Positions 3,781 to 35,560 of a stretch of DNA of 64,000 bases are shown here, piece after piece; position 1 is the first letter of the stretch; the number at the start of each line of letters is the position of its first letter. The notes under the pieces were generated by a model, which saw only the letters and a list, made by a program, of their open reading frames with translations, was not told the origin of the DNA and made no database searches. A program made the position numbers and the translations under genes. This DNA is from a delta proteobacterium MLS_D (lineage in GTDB: Bacteria; Desulfobacterota; Syntrophia; Syntrophales; UBA2210), in the NCBI GenBank assembly GCA_002030015.1, contig LQBH01000013.1, forward strand, positions 62,001 to 126,000, read 5' to 3'.

Positions 3781-4562
3781 TGGCGTCGGAAGGTGTGGAA
3801 ACAGGGCGAGTACACCTGGAAGAGCGTGAGGAACTGCTCCTGCTGGCGGGTTCTTTGAGGCGCCGCCTCGTTGAAGCGGCGGAAGGGGTTTCCTGGTCGC
3901 GTTTCACCATAACCGGCGTCGAGGCGGTTCCCTTCGAAGAGGTGGAATTTCCGGCGAATGAAGGGATCAGCGGAGAAAGAACCCTGGAGGTGATTCGAGC
4001 GGAACTGGGTGATTGCCGCCGGTGCGGGCTGCATGAGACGAGGCGCAACATCGTGTTCGGCGAAGGCAATCCGAAGGCGGACGTCCTGTTTGTCGGCGAG
4101 GCGCCGGGCGAGCAGGAAGACCGGCAGGGCAAGCCGTTCGTGGGAAGAGCCGGGCAACTGCTGACGAAAATCATCGAGGCGATGGGGCTCTCGCGGGAAG
4201 AAGTGTATATCTGCAACATTCTCAAATGCCGCCCGCCGGGAAACAGGAATCCCCGGCCGGAAGAAATCGAAGTCTGCGAACCGTTCCTGAAGGATCAAAT
4301 ACAGGTGATACGGCCTCGGGTCATCTGCGCCATGGGCAGTTTCGCGGCTCGGACCCTTCTTAAACGGGATGCGCCGATCACCGTTTTGCGGGGGAAGTTT
4401 CATTCTTACGATGGTATTCCCCTCATGCCGACGTATCACCCGGCATATCTCCTGCGGAATGCCGGCGCCAAACGCATGGTCTGGGACGACATGCGCATGA
4501 TAATGAGTCTTTTGAAGGACGATGAGAGAGCCTGTGAAAGTACCCGGAACAATAATGATTGA
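3780..4562 (+). CDS. Family-4 uracil-DNA glycosylase
   Basis: A 260-residue DNA-repair enzyme that removes uracil formed by cytosine deamination. Motif A is GEAPGEQED (107-115) and motif B is HPAYLLRN near the C-terminus, the form expected for family-4 (UDGa) enzymes. The four iron-sulfur ligands are in place: C79, C82, C150 and C166, with the C-x2-C and C-x15-C spacings of the family. About 70 residues precede the first cysteine, a longer and mostly charged N-terminus than the minimal thermophile enzymes have. Its start overlaps the coaBC stop by one base. The oxygen-sensitive cluster fits an anaerobe. Confidence 0.93.
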   Translation: MASEGVETGRVHLEEREELLLLAGSLRRRLVEAAEGVSWSRFTITGVEAVPFEEVEFPANEGISGERTLEVIRAELGDCRRCGLHETRRNIVFGEGNPKADVLFVGEAPGEQEDRQGKPFVGRAGQLLTKIIEAMGLSREEVYICNILKCRPPGNRNPRPEEIEVCEPFLKDQIQVIRPRVICAMGSFAARTLLKRDAPITVLRGKFHSYDGIPLMPTYHPAYLLRNAGAKRMVWDDMRMIMSLLKDDERACESTRNNND

Positions 4563-30796: not shown

Positions 30797-32845
30797 ATGG
30801 AATTTATTGTGGATTACGCGTGGTTGTGGGGTGCTGTGGGCCTGGTTATGGCTTTCGGCATTTATAGGTACGTCCTTACATTTTCTCCCGGCAACGAAAC
30901 GATGGTGGAAATCATGGAGCGGATCCATGCCGGCGCCATGGTGTTTCTGAAACGGGAATACAAGATTATTTCCATATTTATCGCAGTTGTCTTTGTGATC
31001 CTTGTTTTCGCCCTGGGAATATGGACGGCCGTCGCATTTCTCGTGGGCGCCATAGGATCCCTGACCGCCGGTCTTTTCGGCATGCAGGCGGCGACCCTGT
31101 CCAACGCCCGCACGGCCGAGGCGGCGAGAACGTTTGGCCAGGGGCGCGCCTTGACGGTGGCTTTCTTCGGCGGCTCAGTCATGGGTCTTTCCGTGGCGTC
31201 GCTGGGTCTGGTGGGCCTGGGTATATTTTTCTTCTTTTTCGCTGAAACGGATTACACGGTCATAACGGGGTTCGCCATGGGCGCTTCGTCGATCGCGCTC
31301 TTTGCCCGTGTCGGCGGCGGTATTTTTACGAAAACGGCCGACGTGGGATCAGACCTGGTGGGCAAGGTTGAAGCGGGCATTCCCGAAGACGATCCACGGA
31401 ATCCCGGTGTTACAGCCGACAACGTGGGTGATAACGTGGGCGACATCGCCGGTATGGGGGCTGATCTCTACGAATCCTACTGCGGGTCCGTCATCGCAGC
31501 CATCGCAATAGGCGCGACCATGGGCGCCATGGCGATGCAATGGATGATGCTTCCCATGCTTTTCATTGTGGCAGGCCTCCTGTCGTCGGTGATCGGTATC
31601 GCCATGTTTAATTTTCTCAAGAACATGAAGCCCCAGTCGGCGCTCAGTAATTCACTGTACATCGCCGGCGTGCTTTTTATCGTTCTTTCCTTTTTCGTTG
31701 TTCGCATTGTCACGCAGGGTATGGACGCCGAGTACCTCAAGAGCATCGGCATGATAAGCGCCTACGGACCTTTCTATGCTGTACTGCTGGGAATAATCGC
31801 AGGCATGCTCATCGGCGGAGTTACTGAGTATTACACGGCTCGCGGGCCCGTCAGGCGGATCGCGGAAGCATCGCAGACCGGTCCGGCCACAAACATCATC
31901 AGCGGTTTTGCCGTTGGTCTCGAGAGTGTCGCGGCGCCGGTCTTTTTTATTGCCATCGCCATCTGGCTCTCCTACACCATGTCCGGTCTTTACGGCATAG
32001 CCATCGCCGGCGTGGGCATGCTGGGAACAGTGGGCATGACCATGTCCGTTGACAGTTACGGACCCATCGCGGACAATGCGGGCGGTATAGCGGAACAGGC
32101 CCATATGCCTCCGGAAGTACGCGAAATCACGGACGGCCTCGACGCGGTGGGCAACACCACGGCGGCTATCGGAAAGGGTTTCGCCATTGGTTCAGCGGCA
32201 TTGACGGCATTGGCCATGTTTGCTGCCTACACGACAACGGTCAGTACCTTCCCGGGTTTCGAGAACTTCGCTCTTGATCTTACGGAAGCGCACGTTATTA
32301 CCGGCGTGTTCATCGGTGGCCTGATTCCGTGCATAATGGCGTCCATGACCATGAACGCCGTGGGCGACGCAGCATTCGAGATGATCAACGAAATCAGGCG
32401 GCAGTTCCGTGATATTCCGGGCATTATGGAAGGAACAACGCCTCCCGACACGAACCGTTGCGTCGATATCGCAACCACGGCGGCGCTGAAGCGGATGATC
32501 GCCCCCGGTGTCGGAGCTGTGCTGGCACCCATTATCGTCGGCGTTCTCATAGGACCCCATGCCCTGGGCGGATTTCTGGCGGGAGCCACCCTGACCGGTG
32601 TTATTCTCGGTCTGCTCATGGCGAATGCCGGCGGTGCCTGGGATAACGCAAAGAAATACATAGAGCAGGGGAATTTCGGCGGCAAGGGTTCCGAGGCTCA
32701 CAAGGCCGGCGTTATCGGCGATACCGTGGGTGATCCCTTTAAGGATACCTCGGGTCCTTCAATGAATATTCTTATCAAGTTGATGTCGGTTGTTTCTCTT
32801 GTCATGGTGCCTGCCATCATGGCGATGTACGAAATGATTCACTGA
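30797..32845 (+). CDS. hppA: Membrane-bound pyrophosphatase (K+-dependent H+/Na+ pump)
   Basis: A 682-residue membrane pump that couples pyrophosphate hydrolysis to export of H+ or Na+. About 16 hydrophobic helices. The catalytic face shows [35 protein letters not shown] and, near the C-terminus, [14 protein letters not shown], the three acidic motifs that bind Mg-PPi. The segment [10 protein letters not shown] has alanine where K+-independent enzymes have lysine, so it should need K+. Whether it exports H+ or Na+ cannot be read safely. It starts 9 bases after pth and is followed by a strong terminator. The pump lets syntrophic anaerobes save energy from PPi made in acyl-CoA activation. Confidence 0.96.
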
Positions 32846-32866
32846 TAACAGCCGCATAAACATAGT

Positions 32867-32899
32867 AAAAGGGGGCGCGGGGTACCGCGCCCCCTTTTT
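32867..32899 (+). terminator. Intrinsic terminator after hppA
   Basis: GGGGGCGCGG (32871-32880) and CCGCGCCCCC (32885-32894) with a GGTA loop, preceded by four A and followed by five T. Confidence 0.92.
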
Positions 32900-32965
32900 G
32901 TTTGCGTATGTCCCGGTGATCTGTATTTCATGCCGTCGAAAACCGGCGTTTATTTTACGGGGGAA

Positions 32966-33010
32966 CCGGCGGGCGGAAAGGAGGGAAGAAAACCGCCCGC
33001 CGGCAGGTGT
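32966..33010 (+). ncRNA. Structured element A (hairpin with purine-rich loop)
   Basis: CCGGCGGGCGG (32966-32976) and CCGCCCGCCGG (32993-33003) form a perfect 11-pair stem around AAAGGAGGGAAGAAAA, followed by CAGGTGT. A second copy is at 33271-33318. In the second copy one C-G pair of the stem is replaced by T-A while the loop stays AAAGGAGGGAA-AAAA, which suggests selection for RNA structure. No Rfam family is recognised by eye. The strand and the limits of any transcript are unknown. Confidence 0.5.
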
Positions 33011-33021
33011 TGCGATTCGTG

Positions 33022-33126
33022 ATGGGATTCCGGAACGTCTCTCCTGAATGTTCCGGGATCGTCAGCAACCTTGGTGAAGCGAAATATACGAAACCTGAAG
33101 AAAACGTGCAATTGGCAAGTTGCTGA
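33022..33126 (+). CDS. Possible 34-codon small ORF after element A
   Basis: ATG 33022 to TGA 33126 would encode a 34-residue peptide (begins MGFRNVSPECSG, ends VQLASC). It has no clear ribosome site at normal spacing; the AAAGGAGG of element A lies about 40 bases ahead, across a stem. Element B is likewise followed by ATTCGT-x-ATG and a 36-codon frame, but the two peptides do not resemble each other. It could be chance. Confidence 0.15.
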   Translation: MGFRNVSPECSGIVSNLGEAKYTKPEENVQLASC

Positions 33127-33176
33127 ATCAGGGAGGGAAAAACCCTTAACGGCACTCAGGATGCGGTCCGAATAAA

Positions 33177-33213
33177 AAAAGATGGTTTCATCGATACGAT
33201 GAAACCATCTTTT
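33177..33213. terminator. Strong bidirectional terminator
   Basis: AAAAGATGGTTTCATCG (33177-33193) and CGATGAAACCATCTTTT (33197-33213), a perfect 17-pair inverted repeat with a 3-base loop, A-run before and T-run after. No gene lies ahead of it on the plus strand except the region of element A, so it probably ends an untranslated RNA; on the minus strand it could serve fusA. Confidence 0.85.
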
Positions 33214-33270
33214 CGTATATACGCTGAAGAGCGATAAGGAAACAGCGCTCGTCAGATTCGAGGGGGGGGT

Positions 33271-33318
33271 GCCGGTGAGCGGAAAGGAGGGAACCGAAAA
33301 CCGCCCACCGGCAGGTGT
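33271..33318 (+). ncRNA. Structured element B (second copy)
   Basis: GCCGGTGAGCGG (33271-33282) pairs with CCGCCCACCGGC (33301-33312), one A-C mismatch, around AAAGGAGGGAACCGAAAA, then AGGTGT. It aligns with element A over about 70 bases, including a downstream ATTCGTsATGG. The region 33319-33526 that follows has a possible 36-codon frame (33336-33446) and otherwise nothing recognised. Confidence 0.5.
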
Positions 33319-33444
33319 AAGCCCTTATATTCGTCATGGTGAAAGGTGCCGCTTATGTTCGAGAACCTGTATCTCTTGTTTCGGGAGTGAAAATACCTGA
33401 ACGGGGGGCGGGAATCAATGGGAGTGTTTCTGATTTGTGGAGGT

Positions 33445-33526: not shown

Positions 33527-35560
33527 CTACTGGTGCCTGTCGTACCGGAGGAACTGCATGGAGAAGGTGGCTCTTCCCTGGGTCAGTGACCGTAAATCGG
33601 TCGTATAGCCGAACAAGTGTCGAAGCGGAACGGTCGAGCGTATTTCGGCGACGGGGATCTTTTGTATTATACTTACAACTTCGCCTCCTCTTGAATTGAT
33701 GCTGCCGATGACCTCGCCCGTGAATTCAGCCGGCGTCAGGATATCGACAGACATGACCGGTTCAAGGAGCACGGGGTGAGCGCCGGCAAGGCCGTTTTGA
33801 AACGCCGTCGAGGCGGCAACCTGGTAGCCAAGTTCCGACGACTCGCCTTCACGGTTGGATCCTCCACGTATCGTTACCTCGAGATCAACAACGGGATACC
33901 CGGAAAGAGGACCGCTCAATCCGGCATCACGGATGCTCTGTTCAATGATTTTATGATATGCCGGTGGTATCACCTCCGGGTCGAGCTCGTTGACGACGGA
34001 GAGACGGCCGCTTCGCGGTGCGGGGGTCAGTTTAAGGATGACATGGCCGAAATGCTTCTTTTCGCCGATTTTTTTGTCGAAGGTTTCTTCCGACTGGAAT
34101 TCATTTTCAATGGTCTCGCGATATACGACGCGGGGTTTGCCAACGTTGACGCCGGTTTTAAATTCCCGCTGCAGGCGGTCGAGAACAACCTCGAGGTGAA
34201 GTTCTCCCATACCGGAAATAACGGTTTGCGCCGTTTCTTCATCATACTTGACCCTGAGGGTCGGGTCCTCGGCGGTTAATTTGTCCAGGGCGAGTGAAAG
34301 ACGGGACTGGTCATCGGGCGTTTTCGCCTCGATGGCCCTGGAAATGACGGGTTCGTAAAAATCCATGGTTTCCAGGAGTATGGGGTGCGATTCATCGCAA
34401 ATCGTGTCTCCCGTGCAGGTCTCTTTGAGGCCGACGGCGACGACTATATCTCCGGCGATTGCCTTGTCGACGCGCTCGCGCTTGTTGGCGTGCATCTTCA
34501 TCAGTCGTGCCGTTCGTTCACGCTTCTGTCGCGTGGCGTTATAAACTTCCTCGCCGGCGGACAGCGTTCCTGAGTACAGGCGCAGGTAGGTTATTCGTCT
34601 TCCCTCGTCGGTCATAACCTTGAAGGCGAAAGCGGTGAGCGGTGCGTTCGCCCGCGTTTTTCTGATTTCTTTTTCGCCTGTCAGGGGATTTATTCCCGAT
34701 ACAGGACGGACTTCCTCCGGTGACGGGAGAAAATCAACGACGGCATCGAGCAGCGTTTGAACGCCTTTGTTGCGAAGGGCGGATCCGCAGAGAACGGGGA
34801 CAATATCCAGTAAAAGAGTCCCCTTTCTCAATGCCTGCAGAATTTCCTCTTCGGGTATTTCCTCGCCTTCAAGATATTTCTCGGCGATGTCATCATCCGA
34901 TTCAGCCAGTTGCTCGATCAGTGCCTCACGGTATTTTTCCGCTTCCACCGATGTTTCGGAAGGAATATCGATAATGTTGTAGGTCGAACCGAGAGATTCT
35001 TCGTCCCAGATCACGCACTTCCGGCGAATGAGATCGACGATACCCCGAAAAGTGCCGTTTTCCATGAGAGGTATCTGAATAGGCACCGGAACGGACGCGA
35101 AACGCCCTTTCATTGTTTTTACAGTACCGAAAAAGTCCGCGCCGGGTCGATCCATTTTGTTGATGAACGCTATTTTCGGAACACCGTACCTGTCAGCCTG
35201 ATGCCATACCGTTTCCGACTGGGGCTCGACGCCACCGACGGCGCAAAAGACAACCACTGCACCATCCAGCACGCGAAGCGACCGTTCAACCTCGATGGTA
35301 AAATCGACGTGCCCCGGTGTATCGATGAGGTGAAGATCAAAATTCTTCCAGGGACATGCCGTGACGGTCGACGTGATGGTTATGCCCCGTTCCTGTTCCT
35401 GGGGCATCCAGTCCATGACCGCTTCGCCGTTATGGACCTCTCCGATTTTGTACGTTTTTCCCGTGTAATACAGGATACGTTCAGTAACCGTCGTTTTCCC
35501 CGCGTCGATATGGGCAACAATGCCGATATTCCTGATTTTTGTTAATTGTGCAGCACTCAC
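33527..35560 (-). CDS. fusA: Translation elongation factor G
   Basis: A 677-residue EF-G that drives ribosome translocation. GTPase motifs: AHIDAGKTT (G1), GITITST (switch I), DTPGH (G3), NKMD (G4) and [11 protein letters not shown] (G5). Domains II-V follow, with [11 protein letters not shown] and the domain IV tip region [10 protein letters not shown]. It is not inside a str operon (no rpsL, rpsG or tuf here) but the last gene of a leftward operon with HD, TPR and GerMN genes, so it may be a second EF-G copy. It is a little shorter than the usual 690-700. Stop TAG; ATG 35560. Confidence 0.93.

Follow-up and report, generated by a model that had tools for sequence, protein, structure and literature searches.

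The gap between hppA and fusA in the stretch of DNA analysed here (the window, 64 kb long) almost certainly holds members of a family of small RNAs that are read from the minus strand. We think it probable that they are tandem paralogous genes of a family spread over the whole order Syntrophales, with anti-Shine-Dalgarno loops that silence mRNAs encoded in trans. The family is real and apparently undescribed, and the window contains a duplicated, single-loop version of it that lacks a sigma-54 promoter. Each copy consists, within about 211 nt in total, of a promoter-like TTGNNN-N17-TATNNT site, a hairpin exposing the anti-Shine-Dalgarno sequence UUCCCUCCUUU, and an intrinsic terminator. The features of the locus are as follows, with the evidence for each in brackets; R2 is the full-length covariance model described below.

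30797..32845, plus strand: hppA, flanking gene outside the RNAs (open reading frame)
32866..33076, minus strand: small RNA 1, predicted extent (R2 match with E 3.8e-13; fold z -6.3)
32867..32898, minus strand: terminator hairpin of small RNA 1, which may also serve hppA in the plus sense (fold)
32966..33003, minus strand: hairpin A of small RNA 1, 11-pair stem, loop UUUUCUUCCCUCCUUU (alignment, fold)
33083..33111, minus strand: promoter-like site of small RNA 1, TTGCAC 33111-33106, N17, TATATT 33088-33083 (genus comparison)
33172..33218, minus strand: terminator hairpin of small RNA 2, U-tract at about 33180-33174 (inverted repeat, fold)
33173..33383, minus strand: small RNA 2, predicted extent with its 3' end near 33174 (R2 match with E 3.7e-19; fold z -5.9)
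33224..33255, minus strand: hairpin B of small RNA 2, CUGACGAGCG...CGCUCUUCAG (predicted fold; covarying helix 2 in relatives)
33271..33312, minus strand: hairpin A of small RNA 2, 12-pair stem with one G.U, loop UUUUCGGUUCCCUCCUUU (alignment, fold)
33390..33418, minus strand: promoter-like site of small RNA 2, TTGATT 33418-33413, N17, TATTTT 33395-33390 (genus comparison)
33527..35560, minus strand: fusA, flanking gene outside the RNAs, near the RNA locus in relatives too (open reading frame, synteny)

An earlier note on this DNA had described two hairpins in the gap, and their stems, loops and flanks are all found in the sequence where it placed them. Copy 1 has its arms at 32966-32976 and 32993-33003 around a loop at 32977-32992, copy 2 its arms at 33271-33282 and 33301-33312 around a loop at 33283-33300, and AAAGGAGGGAA, AAAA, CAGGTGT and ATTCGT-x-ATGG are common to both. 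They are indeed two copies of one element, but the distance between them in register is 306 bases and not 305, and the one mismatch reported for copy 2, which is A.C on the plus strand, becomes a G.U wobble when the minus strand is read. Within the 64 kb window the loop block GGAAAGGAGGGAA has only two occurrences, both of them in the hppA-fusA gap, and no third copy was found elsewhere in the same genome. A known mobile repeat, the identification that the note had named as fatal to its proposal, was rejected on the grounds that the genome has only these two copies and that they have no match in phage or plasmid records.

When 19 hairpins are aligned in the window's minus-strand sense, the invariant loop CCCUCCUUU is carried on a 12-pair stem. 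Paired letters fill 97.7% of the stem cells, as opposed to 36-60% in all slid registers, and four pairs change on both sides. Because what pairs as G.U on one strand would be an A.C mismatch on its complement, the wobble cells of these stems identify the RNA as the minus strand: there were 17 G.U and no A.C cells in the 19-hairpin seed alignment, and 51 G.U as against 9 A.C cells among 95 distinct hairpins. Terminator hairpins followed by U-tracts are in the minus sense in both the window and its relatives, and no sigma-70-like promoter was found on the plus strand at the window locus. The GC-rich hairpin at 32866-32898 is flanked by T on both strands and could terminate both hppA on the plus strand and small RNA 1 on the minus strand. 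Folded on the minus strand, the two window RNAs and one homologue (z -8.2 for the latter) were each more stable than 200 of 200 dinucleotide shuffles.

Homologous hairpins were found in the same genus, family and order as the window in a search of its relatives. We built two covariance models, both of which give rough E-values: R1, a model of the hairpin made from the relatives found by BLAST, and R2, a full-length three-helix model made from 19 relatives outside the window's family, with the window copies excluded from the training set. R1 (E <= 0.01) had matches in 86 of the 155 Syntrophales genomes, and R2 likewise in 86, so that homologues with preserved stems, for which the earlier note had asked, are present across the order. 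Among 395 genomes drawn from the phylum, R1 (E <= 0.001) matched only members of the Syntrophales; a genome-wide pattern scan picked up the Syntrophales loci together with many unrelated ones. The remaining 69 of the 155 genomes have no match, and one large family is almost entirely without the RNA, which therefore is not essential. Both window copies are matched by R2 over their three helices, at 33171-33316 for RNA 2 and at 32862-33008 for RNA 1.

The family has a common layout, in which hairpin A with the anti-Shine-Dalgarno loop is followed by a C-run, by hairpin B (CUGA...UCAG, then UUUAUAUA) and by hairpin C, which is the intrinsic terminator. The motif returns in many families, as UUCCCUCCUUUU in the loop of hairpin C ahead of the U-tract, a feature that is frequent and not universal. 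Many relatives thus have a CCCUCC loop in the terminator; both window copies lack this second motif loop, having ordinary terminator loops and one motif loop each. In the three-helix alignment 96% of the cells are paired (38-56% in slid registers), and 13 of the 30 pairs show two-sided changes, which involve 33 cells, a level reached in none of 500 shuffles. Together with the order-wide homologues, the promoter-like sites and the terminators, this covariation bears out the suggestion in the earlier note that the preserved structure belongs to tandem small RNA genes.

No Rfam 15 family reached its gathering threshold. The candidates considered and rejected were all below threshold: ar15 (AbcR), which gave 30.5 bits with copy 1 (32866-33002, minus strand) against a gathering threshold of 40, CsrC, which gave 20 bits on the plus strand against 61, STnc, SR6 and Chlorobi-1.

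Several variants of the hairpin arrangement were observed. At L118:1501-1657 (G005) three hairpins of the CCCUCC type or related to it follow one another, which suggests that loops were gained by local duplication, and in G010, G012 and G014 two A-type hairpins are separated by about 80-95 nt. At L021:1492-1545 and L023:1494-1546 a CCCUCC-loop hairpin stands alone, with no other part of the RNA, shortly upstream of apparent DUF35-type or 3-hydroxyacyl-CoA dehydrogenase genes; these are possibly cis-acting leader versions. Two more CCTCC-loop hairpins are on the minus strand at 4326 and 2101 of L043, a record labelled 'Deltaproteobacteria bacterium'.

Outside the window's genus most loci have a sigma-54 promoter. 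With the pattern TTGGCAY-N5-TTGCW, a score of at least 10 of 12 and a search range of 450 nt upstream, a site was found at 50 of 66 such loci, compared with 3.4% of random control stretches; at a score of at least 11 the figures were 34 of 66 and 0.3%. The opposite strand of the same stretches contained no sites. In some loci the promoter is 50-170 nt from the RNA; in others it stands before a small open reading frame that we call X, usually about 280-420 nt from the RNA. The stop codon of X lies just before hairpin A, and X immediately precedes the RNA in about 36 of 68 loci. The X products are small charged proteins encoded behind the sigma-54 promoter (for example at L116:1131-1373, in L106 and in L074), mostly of 58-93 amino acids, with the motifs FF[L/I/V]S and a C-terminal FFL[P/S]; those tested had no Pfam or NCBIfam match.

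Of the 68 loci, 50 have a gene for a sigma-54-type AAA+ activator upstream in the same orientation, and the one activator sequence that was read from end to end contains GAF, sigma-54-interaction and Fis-type HTH domains. The ychF gene is convergent with the RNA in 34 of the 68. In larger regions fusA, a TrkA-N ion channel, a cyclic-nucleotide-binding protein and the activator precede the RNA, with ychF or hppA beyond it. The block of fusA, TrkA-N channel, cyclic-nucleotide-binding protein and GAF-AAA+ activator is conserved in L182:1089-4994, L188, L187 and L189. In G007 pth, rplY and prs come after the RNA; the channel and the cyclic-nucleotide-binding protein are present there, and the stretch read contains no activator open reading frame.

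The window has the order prs-rplY-pth-hppA / RNA1-RNA2 / fusA, and by synteny it resembles the locus of the relatives after loss of the activator block and X. X is absent, none of the eight copies in the window's genus, including those of the window, has a sigma-54 promoter of score 10, and a search of the same genome for an orthologue of the activator found only relatives at 38-48% identity. All eight genus copies instead have TTGNNN-N17-TATNNT at -102 to -108 from the start of the hairpin model and share an upstream block, AWTCAGNAAC. From these promoter-like sites the 5' ends are predicted near 33383 and 33076, giving RNAs of about 211 nt. Probably the RNA genes were duplicated in this genus and sigma-54 control was lost, with sigma-70-like promoters taking over.

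The most probable function of the RNA, in our judgment, is repression of trans-encoded mRNAs through its anti-Shine-Dalgarno loop. The minus-strand loop is predicted to be unpaired or weakly paired and is complementary to AAAGGAGGGAA, and its letters are invariant while the stems vary, as expected of a seed. The loops would pair with Shine-Dalgarno sequences (AAAGGAGGG) of mRNAs from other loci, and this pairing would block their translation. In the relatives, the sigma-54 activator would set off this repression when its GAF domains sense a signal. There are 17 AAAGGAGGG-N3-9-ATG sites in the window's own genome, compared with 5 for the reversed control pattern. The genes at these sites, as named by eye, include livH-/livK-like, dctP-like, acyl-CoA dehydrogenase, CoA-ligase, biotin-carrier and rubrerythrin-like genes; several of the sites precede uptake and catabolic genes, and several are found again, with an unchanged spacer, in the two closest species. 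Within families, counts of AAAGGAGGG-ATG sites showed no consistent difference with the presence of the RNA in a table judged by eye. Hfq (PF17209) was not detected in the genome, which is 96% complete, and pairing would therefore need either no chaperone or a different one.

The loops could instead bind a protein that recognizes CU-rich RNA, perhaps X itself, in which case the RNA would be a protein sponge or scaffold. Two identical loops in one RNA do resemble repeated binding sites, and X is the immediate upstream neighbor in many loci, but there is no X at the window locus or at loci with a separate sigma-54 promoter for the RNA, and the invariant letters are the exact complement of a strong Shine-Dalgarno sequence. 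We consider this explanation unlikely. Somewhat less likely again is a purely cis-acting element in the 3' untranslated region that only stabilizes or terminates the mRNA of X (or of the activator), with no function in trans. Such an element would account for the position of the RNA directly after the X stop codon in about half of the loci and for the last hairpin being a terminator. It would not account for the loci with a sigma-54 promoter 50-170 nt from the RNA and no X between them, nor for the window's genus, in which X is missing and the RNA is preceded by a promoter-like site of its own, and termination needs no invariant loop letters.

A general damping of translation, with the anti-Shine-Dalgarno loops titrating many Shine-Dalgarno sequences or competing with the 16S tail and without a defined regulon, is very unlikely. 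The earlier note had mentioned in passing that the minus-strand loop would read like the 16S 3' end, and the loop CCCUCCUUU does resemble the 16S tail ACCUCCUUUCU of L208, the one relative in which the tail pattern was recognizable as 16S; however, the preferred partner of CCCUCC in the loop is AAAGGAGGG, and there are few exact sites, the 17 before ATG being the count for the window's own genome. The reading that the note favored, a plus-strand RNA whose Shine-Dalgarno-like or AAGGA loops would act as a sponge for CsrA, we can practically dismiss: CsrA was detected in the genome and AAGGA is within the plus-strand loop, but the wobble asymmetry, the U-tract terminators and the restriction of the relatives' sigma-54 promoters to the minus-sense strand all indicate the minus strand, and no sigma-70-like promoter was found on the plus strand. 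A sponge of the CsrB/RsmY type was rejected as well, since it requires several GGA loop motifs and the minus-strand loop has no GGA.

Repression in trans by the anti-Shine-Dalgarno loop could be part of a larger scheme, which we put forward only tentatively. The RNA would be an undescribed, order-wide, sigma-54-activated and Hfq-free riboregulator that tunes substrate uptake and acid catabolism, its terminator doubling as a second anti-Shine-Dalgarno loop and the X proteins, a new family with FFL motifs, binding or maturing it; the window's genus would have duplicated the RNA and rewired it to housekeeping promoters.

Members of the Syntrophales live by fermenting fatty and aromatic acids together with methanogenic partners. 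A literature search that had most subscription papers outside its reach found no paper on small RNAs in the order. If our interpretation is correct, the family is an order-wide counterpart of the alphaproteobacterial anti-Shine-Dalgarno RNAs, is controlled by sigma-54 in most loci, works in one or more genomes in which Hfq is not detectable, and combines terminator and seed in one hairpin. The RNA locus is compact and could be tested in a cultured Syntrophus strain.

None of the known systems with which we compared it is the same family. In Vibrio the gene of the sigma-54 activator LuxO, a response regulator, is beside a sigma-54-driven gene for a Qrr RNA, and the Qrr RNAs act with Hfq. The Syntrophales loci similarly have a sigma-54 activator adjoining the small RNA gene, but their activator has GAF domains and their RNA has no Rfam match. 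CJnc230 (FlmE) of Campylobacter jejuni is a sigma-54-dependent 3' untranslated region RNA of 98 nt with an anti-Shine-Dalgarno stretch, CCUU, that is single-stranded between two stem-loops, and it is linked to flgE (PMC11187230). It shares with the Syntrophales RNA its sigma-54 dependence, its position and the anti-Shine-Dalgarno motif, but no similarity was found between the two.

The X-RNA units of the relatives resemble an operon of a small protein and RNAs such as CcaF1-CcsR1-4 of Rhodobacter sphaeroides, in which a small protein gene, the RNAs and an intrinsic terminator follow a promoter for the alternative sigma factor RpoH (PMC10253847). However, X has no Pfam match whereas CcaF1 is a DUF1127 protein, sigma-54 takes the place of RpoH, and the window locus has no X. 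With AbcR1/2 (alpha-r15, RF02345 ar15) the window RNAs have in common the tandem paralogues, the CUCCC-rich loop, the intrinsic terminator and the proposed targeting of uptake genes. The AbcR RNAs are Hfq binders, however, and no Hfq was detected in the window's genome; nor did the homologues L106 and L116 match ar15.

By analogy, the nearest functional parallel of the Syntrophales RNA is alpha-r14/NfeR1, the 'cuckoo' RNAs of the Alphaproteobacteria. These are Hfq-independent RNAs of about 120-150 nt with three hairpins, an ultraconserved CCUCCUCCC anti-Shine-Dalgarno loop and variable stems, and their target candidates are mostly ABC transporters (PMC10746234). In both cases hairpins with variable stems expose a C-rich anti-Shine-Dalgarno motif. 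The Syntrophales loop differs in being CCCUCCUUU, not CCUCCUCCC, in all 19 aligned hairpins, and in place of three motif hairpins the window copies have one motif loop, many relatives two and the L118 region three. The Syntrophales RNA is also set apart by being mostly under the control of sigma-54 and an AAA+ activator and by carrying the motif in its terminator in many members.
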